From Candidatus Stoquefichus sp. (GTDB lineage Bacteria; Bacillota_I; Bacilli_A; Erysipelotrichales; Coprobacillaceae), in contig JAETUM010000046.1 of the NCBI GenBank assembly GCA_021768625.1, positions 1 through 36,999 of the forward strand: 36,999 nt of DNA, read 5' to 3'. A program made the position numbers and the translations under genes. This document shows positions 12,696 through 20,581 of this stretch, piece after piece (position 1 is the first letter of the stretch; the number at the start of each line of letters is the position of its first letter). Below the pieces are notes generated by a model that had not been told where the DNA came from, searched no databases, and saw only the letters and a list, made by a program, of their open reading frames with translations.

Positions 12696-14393
12696 ATGAG
12701 CTTAGAAATATGTTTATCGTTTGTTGTTACATTTCTCATAAGTTTAGCTCTTGTTCCTATTGTAGGAAAAATTTCAAAAAAACTTGGTATTATTGCTCAT
12801 GTTAATAATCGAACAATACATAAGGGAATTATTGCACGAACAGGTGGATACGCTATATATATTGCATTTTTAATAGGAGCAATGATTTTCCTAAAGACAG
12901 ACACACAAATTAATTCTATGCTTATTGGTGGATTTATTATATTTTTAACTGGATTTTATGATGATATTCATGATCTTTCTCCTAAATTTAAGATGTTAGG
13001 ACAAGTGATTGCAGCATTGATTGTTATATTTTATGGAGATATATCTTTAAAAGGATTCACTCTTCCATTTTTGCCATCACAAATTTCTTATATTATAGCA
13101 ATTATTATTACAATTGGATGGATTGTTGGTATTAGTAATGCAGTGAATTTGATTGATGGATTAGATGGTTTATGTGGGGGTATTTCTATTATCGTTTTAG
13201 TGACTATTTCATTGACATCACTCACATATGGGAGAACGGATATTTCTTCATTATCTTTATTATTAGCTGGGGCTATAAGTGGATTTTTGGTATATAACTT
13301 TCATCCTGCATCTATCTTTTTAGGTGATTGTGGAGCATTGTTTATTGGTTATATGATTGCAGTTATTTCCTTATTGGGATTTGGTTATAAGAGTTCATCT
13401 TTCTTTACTTTAGGGGCACCTATTGTTGTATTGATGGTACCTATTATGGATACATTAATTGCAATTATTAGACGTAAAGTTCATCACAAAAGTTTTAGTG
13501 AAGCAGATCGTAATCATTTGCATCATAAATTGATGTTTTCTTTAGAATTAGGACAAACAAAAAGTGTACTTATTTTATATGGTTCGACTATCTTATTTTC
13601 ATTATGTTCTTACTTATATTTATATGATAGAATTGCAGCAACGATTTTGTTTCTTACATTAATGTTACTATTTGAAATATTTGTTGAGGCAACAAATATG
13701 ATAGATCGTAAGTATAAACCAATATTAACGATTGCAAATATTTTTATTAAGAGTGAGTATTTACCTTCTATTAAAGATACAAAACCATATCGAAAAATTG
13801 CACATAAGGCAAAGAAACAATATGCGATTATTTTAGTTTTATTATTAGGAATAGTTTTTTCTTTGATTTTTATTATTAATAATGATAATGAAAAAGAAGT
13901 AAAATATGATAATAAAGTTGTTTATGAGGAATCAAAGAATGAAACAAAGATTATGGAAGATATATATAATCAGTTAAAAGTAGCTGTTAATAATGATAAT
14001 AGAGCAGATATTGGGCAATTAGTAGGAGCATACTTTATTTGTGATTATTATACTTTATCAAATAAAAGTATTAATCAAATTGGAGGAATAGATTATTTCT
14101 ATAATAATAAAAAGGATAACTTTAAAACATATGCTCAAGATGATTATTATAAAGTTGCAAATGAATATATAAATAATCATACAAATACTCAAGAAGTCAT
14201 AAATTATGAAATATTATCATATGATAAATCAACAAAAGCATTAAAGGGATTAGAGGATTATAGTTATTATGATTTAAAGATTAAACTTCATTTTAATGAA
14301 ATGAATTCAATTATTGAGTCAGATGAAATCACAACAACTGTAACTCTTATAGAAAAAGATCAAAAGTTTAGTGTTATAGCTATAGAAGAGTAA
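12696..14393 (+). CDS. TagO/WecA-like undecaprenyl-phosphate GlcNAc-1-phosphate transferase with extra C-terminal domain
   Basis: The enzyme loads GlcNAc-1-P (or a related amino sugar) on undecaprenyl phosphate to start teichoic acid or surface polysaccharide synthesis. The first 340 residues are the MraY/WecA-like polytopic core, with FYDDIHDLSPKFKML (aspartate-rich loop), NLIDGLDGLCGG, FLGDCGALFIGY and the DRNHLHHKL histidine motif. Unusually, the protein continues to 565 aa: an additional TM helix near residues 375-395 (AIILVLLLGIVFSLIFII) is followed by about 170 residues, apparently outside the cell, rich in D/N/Y/K and resembling no catalytic domain I recognise. It has its own terminator and is monocistronic. 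Confidence 0.9.
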   Translation: MSLEICLSFVVTFLISLALVPIVGKISKKLGIIAHVNNRTIHKGIIARTGGYAIYIAFLIGAMIFLKTDTQINSMLIGGFIIFLTGFYDDIHDLSPKFKMLGQVIAALIVIFYGDISLKGFTLPFLPSQISYIIAIIITIGWIVGISNAVNLIDGLDGLCGGISIIVLVTISLTSLTYGRTDISSLSLLLAGAISGFLVYNFHPASIFLGDCGALFIGYMIAVISLLGFGYKSSSFFTLGAPIVVLMVPIMDTLIAIIRRKVHHKSFSEADRNHLHHKLMFSLELGQTKSVLILYGSTILFSLCSYLYLYDRIAATILFLTLMLLFEIFVEATNMIDRKYKPILTIANIFIKSEYLPSIKDTKPYRKIAHKAKKQYAIILVLLLGIVFSLIFIINNDNEKEVKYDNKVVYEESKNETKIMEDIYNQLKVAVNNDNRADIGQLVGAYFICDYYTLSNKSINQIGGIDYFYNNKKDNFKTYAQDDYYKVANEYINNHTNTQEVINYEILSYDKSTKALKGLEDYSYYDLKIKLHFNEMNSIIESDEITTTVTLIEKDQKFSVIAIEE

Positions 14394-14418
14394 AGGAATT
14401 CCAAAAGAATTCCTTTTT
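14392..14418 (+). terminator. Terminator of the TagO-like gene
   Basis: AAAGGAATTC (14392-14401) pairs perfectly with GAATTCCTTT (14407-14416) around a 5-nt loop, and runs into TTTTT. It overlaps the stop codon. Confidence 0.8.
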
Positions 14419-14475
14419 ACATTTTAAGAAAATATATACAATAGATATAAAAATGTTATATACTAAAAAAGTAAA

Positions 14476-14660
14476 AGTTTATCATATTTGTTGGTTGAAA
14501 TATTTCATTAAACTGGAATTAGGTGAAAATCCTAAGCTGTCCCGCAGCCGTAAGAGGGAGTTAATGCAAAATGTCACTGAGAAATTGGGAAGACGCAAAG
14601 ACGTTGAACTTGAGCCGGAATACTTGCCAACATCTAAGAATACACTTTACGGAGTATAAA
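14476..14660 (+). promoter_or_regulatory. Cobalamin (AdoCbl) riboswitch
   Basis: The conserved cobalamin riboswitch core is visible in order: GGTGAAAATCC (14522 on), AAGCTGTCCCGCAGCCGTAA, GTCACTG (14573 on), TTGGGAAGACGC and the B12 box GAGCCGGAATACTTGCC (14612-14628). Downstream lie small stems (ACTTTA/TAAAGT 14644-14662; a T-rich stem at 14683-14699), so the expression platform could be transcriptional, but I cannot settle it. A 68-codon open frame through this region (14453-14659) is not a gene. The riboswitch precedes the surface barrel / DUF4430 / ECF-S operon and implies repression by intracellular cobalamin. Confidence 0.93.
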
Positions 14661-14730
14661 GTAGTTCTCGTATAAAAGAGAGAAGAAGACTGTCTTTTTA
14701 GCGGACCTACCAAATAAGGGAGGAAAGAAA

Positions 14731-15939
14731 ATGAAGAGAATTTTTACAAGTTTAGTTGTATGTTTTTTAACTGTTTTTTTAACAGTATCAAATGCGTTTG
14801 CTATAACATATGATACAAAAAAAATAGACGATGCTTATGAAAAGATTGTAGAATATTATCAGAATCATAAGACATTAGAAAGTCCTGATGAAATCATTGC
14901 TGTTGAGGTATTGGGACTAGAGGTTGAATCAGGATATCAAATACCTGATTTAGAATCACAAGACTTTGAAACATTATCAGTTGGGGATTTAACAAAGTCA
15001 ATTATTGCGTTTACATTAATTGGAAAGGATCCAAAAAATATTCAAGGAAAAAATCTTGTGGAATTATTAGAGAGTTATGTTAATGAAGATGGAACAATTA
15101 AAAATAGTTCAGGACATGGAGATGTGATTTGGACATTATTTGCATTAGAAACAATTTCATCAGACAAAGTGACAAGTGTTGCAGATCAATTGGTTAAGAC
15201 AAGTGTTGATGGTGGATATGGATATACATATGGTGGTGTTAGTTATGCTAGCCCAGATACAACAGGATGGGCTATTGAAGCTTTAACAGTAGCTGGAAAT
15301 GAAAGATATGCAAAGAGTATTCAAGATGCTAAAGATTATTTGGCTACCAAAACTGATGGTAATGCAGGATATAGATTTGATGAATATAGTAGTGCAAATG
15401 GAGATACACAATCTTGTGTTTTAGAAGGATTATTTGTTAATGATAAAAATGCTGTTATAAATGGGGAATATGATAATGGAAATGTTAATCCAATTGATGT
15501 TTTATTGTCATATCAATTAGAAGACGGTTCATTTAAATCTGAAGTTTATGATGGTTGGACACCAACAGGAGAGTATGCATTTAATGCTTATACAACAATG
15601 GAAGCAGCAAGATGTTTAGGTGCATATAAATTAGGAAGTTTTGTTTATAAAGCTAAAGCGGCTTATGATTCTTTTGAAATGAAAGAACCTGTTCATGAAG
15701 AAGAACAAAAACCACAAACTCCAAATCAAGAAGATAAGACAAAACCTGTTGTTAAAACAGAAAATGAAAAACCAGTTGTAAAGAATGAAACTCAAGAGAA
15801 GAAAAATGAAACAACTTCTCATCAAGCAAAGGTTGTAAAAACAGGAGATAGTAATGATGCAACACAATTTATATTGATGTTGATGCTTTCTGGTGGATTA
15901 TTCTTAGGATTAAAGAAGAGAAATGAAGAAAATTATTAA
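14731..15939 (+). CDS. Secreted, wall-sorted alpha-barrel (prenyltransferase/terpene-cyclase-like) protein, candidate corrinoid-binding alpha domain
   Basis: A 402-aa exported protein. A signal peptide covers residues 1-25 (KR, hydrophobic core, AFA before ITYDTKK). Residues of about 30-310 form repeated helical units with signatures of the alpha6-alpha6 barrel family, such as GGYGYTYGGVSYASPDTTGW, TQSCVLEGL and YQLEDGSF. A K/E/P/Q-rich linker follows, then VVKTGD, a hydrophobic stretch and KKRNEE, which is a variant LPxTG-type sorting signal. This fold is that of the N-terminal domain of animal intrinsic factor and transcobalamin. Its position directly under a cobalamin riboswitch makes a corrinoid-binding role likely; enzymatic terpene cyclisation is unlikely for a wall protein. 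The next gene starts inside its last 17 bases. Confidence 0.82.
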   Translation: MKRIFTSLVVCFLTVFLTVSNAFAITYDTKKIDDAYEKIVEYYQNHKTLESPDEIIAVEVLGLEVESGYQIPDLESQDFETLSVGDLTKSIIAFTLIGKDPKNIQGKNLVELLESYVNEDGTIKNSSGHGDVIWTLFALETISSDKVTSVADQLVKTSVDGGYGYTYGGVSYASPDTTGWAIEALTVAGNERYAKSIQDAKDYLATKTDGNAGYRFDEYSSANGDTQSCVLEGLFVNDKNAVINGEYDNGNVNPIDVLLSYQLEDGSFKSEVYDGWTPTGEYAFNAYTTMEAARCLGAYKLGSFVYKAKAAYDSFEMKEPVHEEEQKPQTPNQEDKTKPVVKTENEKPVVKNETQEKKNETTSHQAKVVKTGDSNDATQFILMLMLSGGLFLGLKKRNEENY

Positions 15940-16660
15940 TTTATTATCAAAAATGGATAAAACAAAAAGAATTGTAATATTATTTATTACAATTTCTTTT
16001 GTTTCTATTATAGGTATATCGTGCTATCGTTCTATAAATAAAAATCAACCAGTAGAGCAAGATATTGTTATTAATGATTCTTATAAAGATGAATCAATAA
16101 ATAATGATGATTCTTCTCAAGAAGAAGTCAAAAAGGATACTGAAAAGAAAGATCCAGATCAAGAAAAGCAAGTTATTGAAAAAGAGAATAACTCTCAAAC
16201 TCAGAAAAAAACAGAAAACAAGAAACAAAATAATAATGATGTAAAGACAAGTCATTCCCAAGAAGTTAATAAAAAGAATGAGACAAATAAAGAGGAAAAT
16301 AAAGAGCCACAAGAGAAACCAGATAACCAAACAAAACCACCTGTAGTAGTTGATTCTATTCAAATAAAAGTAGAAGGTATGGGACAAACTATGATGAGTG
16401 GAAAATTAGAAATAGATGAAAATAGTACAGCATTAAGTGTTTTAAAGACTTTGGCATCAAACAATAATGTGCGTATATTAACATCAGGTTTTGGATCTAT
16501 GACCTATGTAAGAGGTATAGGCGATTTAGTTGAGAAAGAACATGGTAATGGATCAGGATGGATGTATAAGGTTAATGGAACGTCTCCAAATATAGCTGCA
16601 GGAGGTTGTTCTTTAAAAAATGGAGATTCTGTTGTTTGGTATTATGTGTATAGTGATTAG
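15923..16660 (+). CDS. Membrane-tethered DUF4430 (transcobalamin C-terminal-like) protein
   Basis: A 245-aa surface protein. Residues 16-35 form one hydrophobic membrane segment after KMDKTKR. Residues of about 38-140 are a charged, low-complexity spacer rich in K, E, N, Q and D that could cross the peptidoglycan. Residues 145-245 are a DUF4430 domain (LSVLKTLASNN, the diagnostic NGSGWMYKVNG, GDSVVWYYV). DUF4430 is related to the beta domain that closes over cobalamin in intrinsic factor and transcobalamin. A Cys at residue 34 (GISC) does not fit a good lipobox, so a TM anchor is more likely. It overlaps the barrel gene by 17 bp, which suggests translational coupling and joint action. Confidence 0.85.
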   Translation: MKKIINLLSKMDKTKRIVILFITISFVSIIGISCYRSINKNQPVEQDIVINDSYKDESINNDDSSQEEVKKDTEKKDPDQEKQVIEKENNSQTQKKTENKKQNNNDVKTSHSQEVNKKNETNKEENKEPQEKPDNQTKPPVVVDSIQIKVEGMGQTMMSGKLEIDENSTALSVLKTLASNNNVRILTSGFGSMTYVRGIGDLVEKEHGNGSGWMYKVNGTSPNIAAGGCSLKNGDSVVWYYVYSD

Positions 16661-16662
16661 AT

Positions 16663-17181
16663 ATGAGTAAAGTTAAGATGATTAGTTTGATAGGAATATT
16701 AGCTGCGGTTAATATTGCTTCTCGTATGGGATTACAGGCATTACCTAATATTAAGCCTGTCACATCTATTATTATTATTTCAGTTATGATTTTTGGATTG
16801 TCTTTTGGGGTTAAATTGACAATTGTTACAACTATTGTATCAAATATATTTTTGGGTATGGGAATATGGACTTTTTTTCAAATATTAGCATGGATCGTGA
16901 TTTGTTTGTTGACACAAATTGTTGTGGATTTTTATCGTAAAATAAAGAAAGAACCTCATCTTATTGTTATGGCATGTTTTTCTTTTTTGATGGGGTATGT
17001 TTTTGGACTTATTGTTTCTTTAGAACAATTGATGATAGGTGGTCCAGGATTGTTTTTAACATATTATACTGCTGGTTTTGTTTTTGATACATTGCATGCT
17101 ATTGGAAATTTCTTTTTCTATCTTATTTGTGCACCTATTTTGACAAAGATATTTATAAATGAGAAGCAAAAATTTATATAA
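16663..17181 (+). CDS. ECF transporter S component, probable cobalamin/corrinoid specificity
   Basis: A 172-aa integral membrane protein with about five or six helices, in the pattern of ECF substrate-binding (S) components: short N-terminus, ILAAVNIASRMG in helix 1, and a loop with GGPGLFLTYYTAGFVFDTLHA. It starts two bases after the DUF4430 gene, so it belongs to the cobalamin-riboswitch operon. Corrinoid specificity, as in the CbrT type, is inferred from that location. The energising EcfA/A'/T module is not in the window, as expected for a group II system with a shared module. In the model the two surface proteins hand corrinoid to this component. Confidence 0.85.
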   Translation: MSKVKMISLIGILAAVNIASRMGLQALPNIKPVTSIIIISVMIFGLSFGVKLTIVTTIVSNIFLGMGIWTFFQILAWIVICLLTQIVVDFYRKIKKEPHLIVMACFSFLMGYVFGLIVSLEQLMIGGPGLFLTYYTAGFVFDTLHAIGNFFFYLICAPILTKIFINEKQKFI

Positions 17182-17267: not shown

Positions 17268-17489
17268 ATGATTTTAAATGCATTATTAATGATTGTTTCG
17301 GTTGCTCTTATTATTGTATGCCTATTACAAAGTGGAAAATCTGATGGTATTGTCAATGCGTTGACAGGACAAAGTTCCAATCTTTTTGCTCATCAAAAAG
17401 AAAGAGGAGCTGATTTGATACTTTCTAGGATTACAGTAGGACTTGGAATTGCATTCTTTGTTCTTGCTATATTAATTAGAATGGGTTAA
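17268..17489 (+). CDS. secG: Preprotein translocase subunit SecG
   Basis: A 73-aa protein with two TM segments (about residues 2-20 and 50-71) and the characteristic central loop GQSSNLFAHQKERGADLILSR. SecG supports the SecYE translocon. It is the first gene of the secG-rnr-smpB-ssrA arrangement common in Bacillota. AAGGAGG lies 7 bases before the ATG. A terminator-like hairpin separates it from rnr, so the two may be only partly co-transcribed. Confidence 0.95.
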   Translation: MILNALLMIVSVALIIVCLLQSGKSDGIVNALTGQSSNLFAHQKERGADLILSRITVGLGIAFFVLAILIRMG

Positions 17490-17494
17490 TAAAT

Positions 17495-17523
17495 AATAGG
17501 GCACAAATATGTGTCCTATTTTT
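17495..17523 (+). terminator. Terminator or attenuator between secG and rnr
   Basis: An 11-bp stem (AATAGGGCACA 17495-17505 / TGTGTCCTATT 17510-17520, one G-U pair) has a 4-nt loop and ends in a run of T. rnr starts 33 bp later. Confidence 0.75.
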
Positions 17524-17555
17524 AATTTTGGATATACTAAAAAGGAGGTGAAATC

Positions 17556-19766
17556 ATGAGAGAAGATATTTTAAAGATATTAGAGGATCAAACATTTACA
17601 CATAGGAAGATAGACGAATTGGCACAATATTTTCATATGACAAGTACGCAAGATTATATAAGCTTTATCAAATTGATGAACAGCCTAGAAGATGAAGGAC
17701 TTATCATTCGTAATAAAATTAATGAGTATTATTTAATCAATCAATTACAATATTATAGTGGAATGATTGAAATGAATAAAAGAGGTTTTGCATTTGTGAA
17801 GGTGGATGAAGAAAGAGAATTTTATATTCACGAAACCAATATGAAAGATGCTTATGATAAAGATATAGTTTTGTTAGAAAAAATTCCATCTCAAGGAGCA
17901 AGAGAAGAAGGAAGAGTTGTTCGTGTTTTAAAACGTGGGCAATTACGTTATGTAGGTGAAGTCAAAAAAGGAAAAAGAGATTATTATATACAAGTAGATG
18001 ATATTAAGTTTCCTAAACCTATTTTTGTGGATCATGCTCATATGCATGGAGCTGTCTTAGGTCATAAAGTTGTTGTTGAGATAAAGACTTTTAAACCACA
18101 AATAAAGGGAGATATTGTTAAAATTATTGGGCATAAAAATGATCCTGGTATTGATATTTTATCTATAGTTCATGCTCATGATGTGGATATTGAATTTCCT
18201 CAAGATGTTTATGAACAGATAGAAACAATTCAAGATCAAATTGATCCTGAAGATATTTGTCATAGAGTTGATTTAAGAAATGAAGTTATAGTGACTATAG
18301 ATGGTGATGATGCTAAGGATTTAGATGATGCTATTTCTTTAAAGAAAATGGATAATGGAAATTATCAATTAGGAGTCCATATTGCAGATGTGTCTTATTA
18401 TATAAAGGAAGGTTCACCTTTAGATAAAGAGGCTATCAAAAGAGGAACATCTATTTATTTAGTAGATAGAGTTATTCCTATGTTACCTCATAAATTATCT
18501 AACGGTATTTGTTCGTTGAATCCGCATGTTGATAGATATACGATTAGTTGTATGATGGAAATTGATAATCGTGGAAATGTTGTTAATCATGATATTATTC
18601 CATCAGTTATTCATTCATCATATCGTATGACATACAATAATGTGAATAAAATATTAGATGGAGATAAAATTGTTCAAGAGGAATATAGAGATGTTGTTGA
18701 TTTGTTCTTTTTAATGCAAGAACTTGCAAGTTTGTTAAGACAAAAACGTGATGCAAAAGGAGCTATTGATTTTGATGTCAATGAAGCAAAAGTCCTTGTA
18801 GATAAAAAAGGAAAGGCAATAGATGTTGTATTACGTACAAGAGGGAATTCTGATAAGATTATTGAAGAATTTATGTTATGTGCTAATGAAACGGTTGCAG
18901 AACATTTTAAATGGTTAGAGTTACCATTTATCTATCGTATTCATGAACATCCAAAACTAAAGAAGTTACAACAATTTGTTTCAATTGTTAAACCTTTAGG
19001 ATATACGATAAAAGGTTCTTTGGAAAATGTTTATCCAAATGAGTTGAGTTCTATTATAGAAGCCTCAAAAAATACAGAAGAACATACGATTATTGCAACA
19101 CTTTTATTACGATGTATGCAAAAGGCTAGATATGATGAACAGTGTTTAGGTCACTTTGGGCTAGCAGATGAGTATTATACACATTTTACATCACCAATAC
19201 GTCGTTATCCTGATTTATTGGTTCATAGATTGATTCGTACATATCTCTTTGAACAAAAAATGGATAGTATTTCTCATTATCAAGAGGTAATTCCTTATTT
19301 AGCTGAGCAATCTTCTAATAGGGAAAGAGAATCTATTGATATTGAAAGAGAAGTTACTGATATGAAAATGGCAGAATATATGTCTTATCATATTGGTGAA
19401 GAGTTTGAAGGTATGATTTCATCTATTACACAATTTGGATTTTTTGTGGAATTGGAGAATACAATAGATGGATTAGTTCATATGAATGAACTGAAAGATG
19501 ATTATTATCATTATGATGAAAAGAATCTGATATTAGTTGGAGAAATGACTGGAAAAACATATAAGTTATCAGATAAGGTAAAAGTAAGAGTTATTTCTTG
19601 TGATAAAAAGGAAGGAACAATTGATTTTGAACTAGTTGGACAAAAGTCAAGAATAAAAAACAAGAAAACAATTCATATAAATGACAAAAAATTAAAGACA
19701 AATCATAAGAAAAAGGGTAAAATAAATAAGTCAAGAAGACAAAGAAAGTTTATTAGAAAAAGATAA
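17556..19766 (+). CDS. rnr: Ribonuclease R
   Basis: A processive 3'-5' exoribonuclease of 736 aa in the family's normal order: N-terminal winged-helix region (1-65), OB/cold-shock domains, the RNB catalytic domain (from about 245) with the aspartate cluster [16 protein letters not shown], the nucleotide-binding [17 protein letters not shown] near residue 550, an S1 domain from about 620 ([15 protein letters not shown]) and a basic tail rich in K and R. RNase R degrades structured RNA and works with SmpB/tmRNA in trans-translation quality control. smpB begins 13 bp after it. Confidence 0.97.
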
Positions 19767-19779
19767 GGCGGTGATATGT

Positions 19780-20226
19780 ATGAAAATTGTTTCTCAAAAT
19801 AAAAAGGCTTATCATGATTATTTTATATTAGATACTTATGAAGCAGGTATTGAATTAAAAGGAACAGAAATTAAGTCTGTGCGAAAAGGAAGTACAAACT
19901 TAAAAGATGCTTTTATTCGTATAAAAAATGATGAAGCATATATAGAGAACATGCATATTGCTCTTTATGAACAAGGAAATCGTTTTAATCATGAACCACT
20001 TCGTACAAGAAAACTTCTTTTGCACAAAAAACAAATAAAAAAATTACAAAAAGAAGTCAAAGAAAATGGTTTAACAATTGTACCTACGAAACTATATTTT
20101 AATACATCAAAGTTAAAAATAGAAATTGCTTTAGCGCGTGGGAAAAAATTGTATGATAAACGACAAGATTTAAAAGCTAAAGATGCAAAAAGAGATGTAG
20201 AAAGAGCATTGAAAAATGCTTACTAA
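19780..20226 (+). CDS. smpB: SsrA-binding protein SmpB
   Basis: A 148-aa protein with the signatures [39 protein letters not shown]-like [13 protein letters not shown] and the C-terminal [19 protein letters not shown]. It binds tmRNA and delivers it to stalled ribosomes. The frame opens at GTG 19771, but the ATG at 19780, preceded by GGCGGTGA, gives the family's usual MKIVSQNKK start. It is followed directly by the tmRNA gene. Confidence 0.96.
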
Positions 20227-20227
20227 T

Positions 20228-20581
20228 GGGGGCGTCTTGGATTCGACAGGGGTTAGTTTGAATAGAATTGCAGCCGTAGGCATACGTTAAATGCAACAAA
20301 AAATATCTGGAAACAGACAACAATTATCTTTCGCTTGCTAGTCGACGTTAGACTTTAGCGAATATCAGCCTTTAAGATACCTATGCTTAAAGAACTGGTA
20401 ACATATTTTATAGGTTAAGGATATGTAGCGTCTGGATACATATCTCGAAAAATAACAGAATCGCTAAGTGAAAGACTGCTTGTGGATCGTAGCTTAGTTA
20501 AATTCATTCGACAAGATAAGCTGTAGAAGTTCTATATGGGACGACTTTTGGACGCGGGTTCGATTCCCGCCGCCTCCACCA
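20228..20581 (+). ncRNA. ssrA: Transfer-messenger RNA (tmRNA)
   Basis: The 5' end GGGGGCG (20228-20234) pairs with CGCCTCC near the 3' end, which is followed by A and an encoded CCA ending at 20581. The tRNA-like domain has GGATTCGACAGGGG at the 5' side and the T-arm CGGGTTCGATTCCCG at the 3' side. The length, 354 nt, is standard. The tag frame is not obvious. The most likely reading frame ends ...GNRQQLSFAC at TAG 20339-20341, which lies in the helix after the tag as in other tmRNAs; another frame ends at TAG about 12 nt further on. It directly follows smpB. No second copy of the 3' end, as an att repeat would give, was seen in the window. Confidence 0.96.

Follow-up and report, generated by a model that had tools for sequence, protein, structure and literature searches.

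Organization of the B12 operon

The window, by which we mean the whole 36,999-nucleotide stretch of DNA analysed here (contig JAETUM010000046.1 of assembly GCA_021768625.1, Candidatus Stoquefichus sp., order Erysipelotrichales), carries on its plus strand a three-gene operon (14731-15939, 15923-16660, and 16663-17181 by open reading frame (ORF) calls) that is headed by a cobalamin riboswitch. Its products are a predicted α/α toroid protein, a membrane-anchored DUF4430 protein, and an S component of an energy-coupling factor (ECF) transporter, for which the best explanation is a cobalamin-repressible system for scavenging vitamin B12 or another corrinoid. The features of the locus are as follows.

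14392..14416, plus strand: terminator-like hairpin ending the upstream gene (pattern scan, consensus match only)
14475..14645, plus strand: cobalamin riboswitch aptamer, RF00174 (95.3 bits, E 1e-22, full-length 1-189)
14731..15939, plus strand: gene 1, predicted secreted α/α toroid protein of 402 aa, with signal peptide, toroid, linker, and sorting-like tail
14803..15696, plus strand: toroid domain with 12 main helices (AlphaFold2, predicted local distance difference test (pLDDT) 92.4, predicted template modelling score (pTM) 0.92)
15835..15849, plus strand: VKTGD sorting-like motif, followed by a hydrophobic stretch and a KKR tail (TIGR01167)
15923..16660, plus strand: gene 2, predicted membrane-anchored DUF4430 protein of 245 aa
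15971..16024, plus strand: N-terminal hydrophobic anchor with no canonical lipobox (sequence)
16031..16345, plus strand: charged low-complexity spacer of 105 residues, rich in K/E/N/Q/D
16424..16645, plus strand: DUF4430 (transcobalamin-like SLBB β-grasp) domain (PF14478, E 6e-18, residues 168-241)
16663..17181, plus strand: gene 3, ECF transporter S component of the CbrT family, 172 aa

The aptamer, for which the gathering score is 31.5 bits, is the only RF00174 copy in the 2.92 Mb genome, and 85 bases separate its end from the first gene. Genes 1 and 2 are ORFs in different frames and overlap by 17 bp, and a gap of 2 bp lies between genes 2 and 3. This matches the preliminary description, made from the sequence alone, which had placed three overlapping or abutting genes behind a cobalamin riboswitch. 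Upstream, the terminator-like hairpin would set the preceding gene apart from the operon. As the fold of 14475-14745, taken in search of an expression platform, was no better than those of shuffled sequences (z 0.89), we make no claim on the mechanism of the riboswitch.

The first gene product is a predicted α/α toroid

The models of the toroid and DUF4430 domains derive from alignments in which the respective window protein was combined with eight homologs. Pfam gave no domain of its own above threshold for the toroid of gene 1, in which weak similarity to terpenoid cyclases and repeats of that type can be seen. A search of the protein data bank (PDB) with the toroid profile returned squalene-hopene cyclases as the best matches (E 8e-16), and the hits by sequence were terpene cyclases and prenyltransferases only, with no match to transcobalamin (TC) or intrinsic factor (IF). 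The structural comparison gave the same neighbor, as the model superposes on squalene-hopene cyclase with a Z of 22.2 and a root mean square deviation (rmsd) of 2.9 over 249, and sugar epimerases also rank high by fold. A match to TC and IF emerged by fold search only (Foldseek E 8e-4); these two are not among the best 50 structural matches listed, which tells nothing either way. The DxDD catalytic motif is missing in 29 of 29 toroid homologs. Sequence repeats and model together thus show the first operon protein as a predicted α/α toroid, which has only its fold class in common with the animal α domain, and the secreted α-barrel protein of the preliminary description is recovered in it.

At the C-terminal end, the tail scores 19.9 bits with the LPXTG-anchor model TIGR01167, for which the cut-off is 15.9, and falls below the cut-off of the Gram_pos_anchor model of Pfam. 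Two sortases are found in the genome, and the toroid occurs there as one copy. Separately, a toroid-like region is also present in a cadherin-like surface protein of Vescimonas fastidiosa, whose 4.7 kb gene (L159, 3212-7912) has no evident B12 locus around it; the wider toroid family may bind other ligands.

The second gene product carries a transcobalamin-like domain

Gene 2 holds the only DUF4430 copy of the genome. The model of this domain (16355-16657) has a pLDDT of 93 and finds its closest structural counterparts in the animal B12 carriers, foremost haptocorrin (PDB ID: 4kki), with a Z of 15.3 and a rmsd of 2.2 Å over 98 of 101 residues, followed by bovine transcobalamin (Z 13.9) and intrinsic factor (Z 13.6). 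Over the three carriers, Z ranges from 13.4 to 15.3 and the rmsd from 2.2 to 2.5 Å, with 96-99 of the 101 residues aligned. Next in the list is a bacterial protein of function not known (PDB ID: 3u7z, Z 12.7), after which the score drops to 8.7 for the first unrelated fold. Moreover, the family profile matches transcobalamin-1 (haptocorrin) with E 1e-4 and transcobalamin-2 with E 2e-3. Profile and model together show DUF4430 as having the predicted β-domain fold of transcobalamin and intrinsic factor. Both earlier proposals for this gene are therefore sustained, namely a transmembrane-anchored protein with a long charged spacer and terminal DUF4430, and a kinship of that domain with the carrier β domain.

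Proteins with DUF4430 in tandem were also encountered, with three copies at L128 (4558-5592) and L121 (3999-5894) and with four in Collinsella (L160, 1561-5355). In addition, three human faecal contigs deposited as phages (MT835727.1, MT839226.1, and MT837027.1) encode DUF4430 domains ~33-37% identical to that of the window, and these are either genuine cargo of phages or come from bacterial DNA that was mis-binned.

The S component and the B12 economy of the host

In Pfam alone, the ECF S component match of gene 3 is weak (20.9 bits, below the cut-off). A profile built from the window protein and 25 homologs matched CbrT (6fnp_A) with E 6.5e-27 across profile positions 2-155 of 159, and the second match stood at E 0.2. 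By profile, the predicted S component is unambiguously of the CbrT family, which adds a family name to the ECF S component first described. CbrT binds cobalamin (Cbl) with a dissociation constant (Kd) of 9 nM, and ECF-CbrT imports cobalamin and cobinamide (PMC5997447).

The operon has an S component without CbiO/CbiQ-like (ECF module) genes of its own, and a genome search covering the CbiQ/EcfT family of such modules found two of these genes elsewhere. No FecCD-family permease was found in the genome, and hence no BtuC; nor was CbiC, the sole corrin-synthesis enzyme family searched, and hence apparently no complete corrin synthesis. Since the genome also has MetH and further B12-domain proteins, these features together with the operon point to a cell that uses and imports B12, in which the operon would be the only recognisable B12 importer. 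Given the CbrT-family S component, the riboswitch, the absence of BtuC, and the metF-metH context described below, the operon very probably serves B12 uptake, as had been supposed at the outset.

Homologs and gene context in relatives

Among 196 genomes of the order, DUF4430 occurs in 69, a cobalamin riboswitch in 71, and the toroid in 27. DUF4430 lies no more than 3 kb from a cobalamin riboswitch in 39 of the 43 genomes having both. Of the 27 toroid genomes, 26 have the toroid no more than 5 kb away from DUF4430; at the remaining locus (L148), the contig stops just past the toroid, which follows metH. The preliminary description had named homologs lying mostly away from cobalamin genes as a result that would refute it, and the opposite is seen.

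Two layouts are seen in the family of the window. Type A, to which the window belongs, has the order toroid-DUF4430-S and comprises 20 loci and a further two whose toroid is divergent (hhalign E 3.5e-7), and type B has DUF4430-EcfT-EcfAA'-S-toroid (5 loci). In seven loci without a riboswitch, a search at E up to 1 found none. In five riboswitch-less loci of type A (L032, L033, L034, L052, and L057), the toroid comes directly behind metF, a probable MetH activation gene, and metH, and with L148 there are six such loci in all. Elsewhere (L039), a riboswitch is accompanied by upstream genes of corrinoid-methyltransferase type (RACo, URO-D).

In a tree of DUF4430, the copy of the window clusters with those of type A and B operons, apart from those of fusion and toroid-less ones, a grouping that gives no evidence of an origin of the split form in the recent break-up of a fusion. 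The divergence of toroid and DUF4430 is correlated when that of S is controlled for (partial Mantel r 0.52-0.56, p 2e-4), and the toroid-S correlation given DUF4430 is only 0.17-0.20. This co-divergence would fit a direct partnership of the two surface proteins; S is strongly conserved, and hence a blunt control.

As regards the flanks, the window encodes upstream (12696-14393) a WecA/MraY-like sugar-phosphate transferase with an unusual additional C-terminal part of ~200 residues, and downstream of the B12 operon (17268-20581) secG, rnr, smpB, and tmRNA. Genes of the same size or a tmRNA also lie downstream of the B12 operon in L036, L037, L038, L042, and L056, and as such a flank is kept in several relatives, the insertion site of the operon appears to be old.

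Fusions and swaps of the toroid and DUF4430

Lipoproteins found in other families of the class join DUF4430 and toroid in a single chain; their genes have a cobalamin riboswitch just upstream and lie directly upstream of a second DUF4430 gene and/or a CbrT-like S component. The toroid of these chains shows homology to that of the window (hhalign probability 97.7 %, E 2e-12). The reverse order, as in intrinsic factor, is found in lactobacilli as toroid-DUF5776-DUF4430 single chains, whose toroid part is recognized by tblastn (E ~1e-11) and by weak profile matches; the single chain of Lentilactobacillus kefiri adjoins an ECF/CbrT-like set and that of Levilactobacillus brevis adjoins cobS. The split form appears again in Latilactobacillus curvatus, as toroid-DUF4430-EcfT-EcfAA'-S, with a toroid homolog whose anchor signal is above the Gram_pos_anchor cut-off. 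Fusions in both orders and in equivalent operons are a classic sign of two proteins acting as one unit, and those of toroid and DUF4430 support one functional unit.

As further observations on these lactobacilli, L. kefiri and L. brevis have a fucose-binding lectin gene that separates the single-chain toroid gene from a second DUF4430 gene, and B12 capture genes (toroid, DUF4430, ECF, and cobS) are carried on Lactobacillaceae plasmids (L156-L158), on two of which transposase or recombinase genes lie close by.

A proposed split clamp and its alternatives

We interpret the operon as encoding a split transcobalamin-like B12 clamp that feeds ECF-CbrT, a reading of sequences and models that, for the clamp itself, we hold with moderate confidence. 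When B12 is scarce, the riboswitch would permit expression of the operon, and the toroid and DUF4430 would then serve as the two halves of a corrinoid clamp on separate chains. In such an arrangement, the 105-residue tether could let DUF4430 reach a toroid fixed to the wall and then return to CbrT at the membrane. Human TC-α and TC-β, as separate chains, assemble only with Cbl, and TC-β alone binds CNCbl (cyanocobalamin) (PMC5599065); by analogy, the operon looks like this experiment made by nature. More tentatively, the halves may sit in different envelope layers, with the toroid on the wall and the β domain on a membrane tether, such that B12 would join them and the tether would move the clamp, with its load, through the wall to CbrT; carrier and receptor would then be one device.

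Several observations weigh against the clamp. On the toroid side, PF01122, the animal α domain, had no match to the gene 1 protein at E up to 1, nor to any of 9 aligned toroid family members at E up to 0.1, and the nearest toroid relatives are terpene cyclases. Conservation at the N-termini of the inner helices, at the rim of the toroid, is 0.51 versus 0.52 elsewhere, a value that 182 of 288 circular shifts equal or exceed, and this lack of enrichment gives no support for a ligand rim. The wall-sorting-like tail noted earlier stands as a TIGR01167 match above cut-off, but its motif is VKTGD-like and not LPXTG, drifts to TSD/TDD/TFD among homologs, and has a G that is not conserved; three toroid homologs are without tail and anchor altogether. 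Regarding the pairing itself, some operons have DUF4430 and S without a toroid (e.g. L066, L068, L069, L149, and L150), so DUF4430 can work without it, and a second free DUF4430 is common in the fusion operons, so DUF4430 may also serve another function next to CbrT. Finally, in seven type B genomes the slot of the toroid is filled by a surface β-propeller (PQQ/BamB-like) with a similar TGD tail (L077, 1916-4279; L078, 2289-4646; L089, 3973-6339; also L079, L080, L081, and L082). In some of these propellers, a DUF4430-like and an Ig-like domain are also present at the N-terminus. By sequence, the propellers did not match BtuG; they are possible Gram-positive analogues of it. The preliminary description, in which the two proteins were halves of an intrinsic-factor-like clamp, is thus supported in part, by the folds, the fusions, and the B12 context, and the toroid-less operons and the propeller swap go the other way.

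Toroid-less operons and swapped propellers are what the main alternative would explain, a relay without a clamp, which we consider possible but doubtful. Here, the toroid or propeller would be an independent surface binder of corrinoids, and DUF4430 would partner the CbrT S component outside the cytoplasm or act as its lid, with B12 handed on and not sandwiched. That TC-β needs no partner for binding CNCbl speaks for such a relay, as does BtuG2, a surface β-propeller of Bacteroides that binds B12 by itself (PMC6977713). In Lacticaseibacillus rhamnosus, moreover, a published protein list has an entry called 'additional lipoprotein component of putative cobalamin ECF transporter', and the same paper places a DUF4430 gene beside rtpR (PMC9963975); we infer that the named lipoprotein and the DUF4430 gene product are the same protein. 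A relay is at odds with the one-chain fusions of both orders and with a toroid-DUF4430 co-divergence beyond that with S. Much less credible is an enzymatic toroid, similar to terpene cyclases or active on carbohydrates, that is a mere neighbor in the regulon: the squalene-hopene cyclases nearest by sequence and fold and the high-ranking sugar epimerases would suit it, but DxDD is missing throughout, toroid homologs occur only in B12 loci, and relatives fuse the domain to DUF4430, so that we give this option very little weight.

A different question, compatible with clamp and relay alike, is whether a corrinoid precursor or analogue (e.g. cobinamide or another cobamide) is imported rather than cobalamin, which we think unlikely. 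In its favor, CbrT takes cobinamide too, haptocorrin, to which the DUF4430 model is structurally closest, binds cobinamide tighter than TC does (PMC5599065), and L. brevis has a histidine phosphatase gene along with cobS beside its single-chain relative. The riboswitch, however, belongs to the cobalamin class and relatives have the operon linked to metH, and no sequence feature tells the substrates apart.

In three loci (L052, L057, and L059), the toroid proteins lack a sorting tail and end in additional Ig/FN3-like repeat domains, and the DUF4430 partners have a signal peptide and no visible anchor. Judged by these sequences, the pairs are possibly released two-piece B12 binders; with no anchor visible on either protein, they are poorly explained by clamp and relay alike.

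Comparison with known systems

For the domain of gene 2, Burroughs et al. (2007; PMC1796856) defined a transcobalamin-like clade within the SLBB domains, with bacterial fusions to α/α toroids on either side and to β-propellers, wall anchors, and operons with CbiO/CbiQ-like genes in hosts without B12 synthesis; B12 scavenging was predicted and transfer to animals proposed. The CbiO/CbiQ operons are described there as general and the toroid fusion as common, neither being a strict requirement. Those proteins and the window share the DUF4430 β-grasp, a toroid partner, surface location, the scavenging prediction, ECF-type operons, and a lack of B12 synthesis. The window differs in that toroid and SLBB are separate proteins with separate anchors, that a CbrT-family S component and riboswitch and metF-metH links are documented, and that the operon has no ECF module, for which CbiO/CbiQ-like genes are present in the type B relatives and L. 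curvatus. Bacterial toroid/transcobalamin-like B12 scavengers were therefore already known as a prediction (PMC1796856), and the novelty implied by the preliminary description was overstated. In the open-licence literature searched, we came across no description of the split form, of CbrT, riboswitch, or metF-metH links to the toroid, or of the propeller swap. New here are the split form, the links to CbrT, riboswitch, and metH, and the β-propeller in the toroid slot. To our knowledge, surface corrinoid capture by Gram-positive gut bacteria is largely untested, and the known surface binders (BtuG and BtuH) are from Bacteroides. The operon would represent a compact B12-switched system of gut Bacillota in which a CbrT-family transporter is joined to relatives of the animal B12 carriers, and if its binding were as tight as that of the human carriers, it could matter in gut competition for B12.

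With animal intrinsic factor, transcobalamin, and haptocorrin, the system shares the β-domain fold and the toroid fold of the other half, ligand-dependent assembly being a feature of the TC halves. In contrast, the window has two chains that are predicted to be anchored to membrane or surface, its toroid is not specifically related to PF01122, and it is known from genes and models. ECF-CbrT of Lactobacillus delbrueckii (PMC5997447; PDB ID: 6FNP) has in common with it the S component family and a group II style operon without an ECF module. ECF-CbrT by itself transports in vitro (PMC5997447), and its gene cluster in L. delbrueckii is nrdJ-cbrS-cbrT-pduO, whereas the window adds two surface proteins and a riboswitch. 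With the toroids of squalene-hopene cyclases and of protein prenyltransferase β, the gene 1 protein shares the toroid fold and QW-like repeats; it differs from squalene-hopene cyclases in having no DxDD, in being secreted, and in its place in a B12 operon. Lastly, BtuG and BtuH of Bacteroides (PMC6143338, PMC8941943) resemble the window system as surface capture proteins ahead of a membrane transporter, and the propellers of the operons that have them are similar to BtuG in fold class, but folds, families, and the Gram-positive envelope set the two apart.

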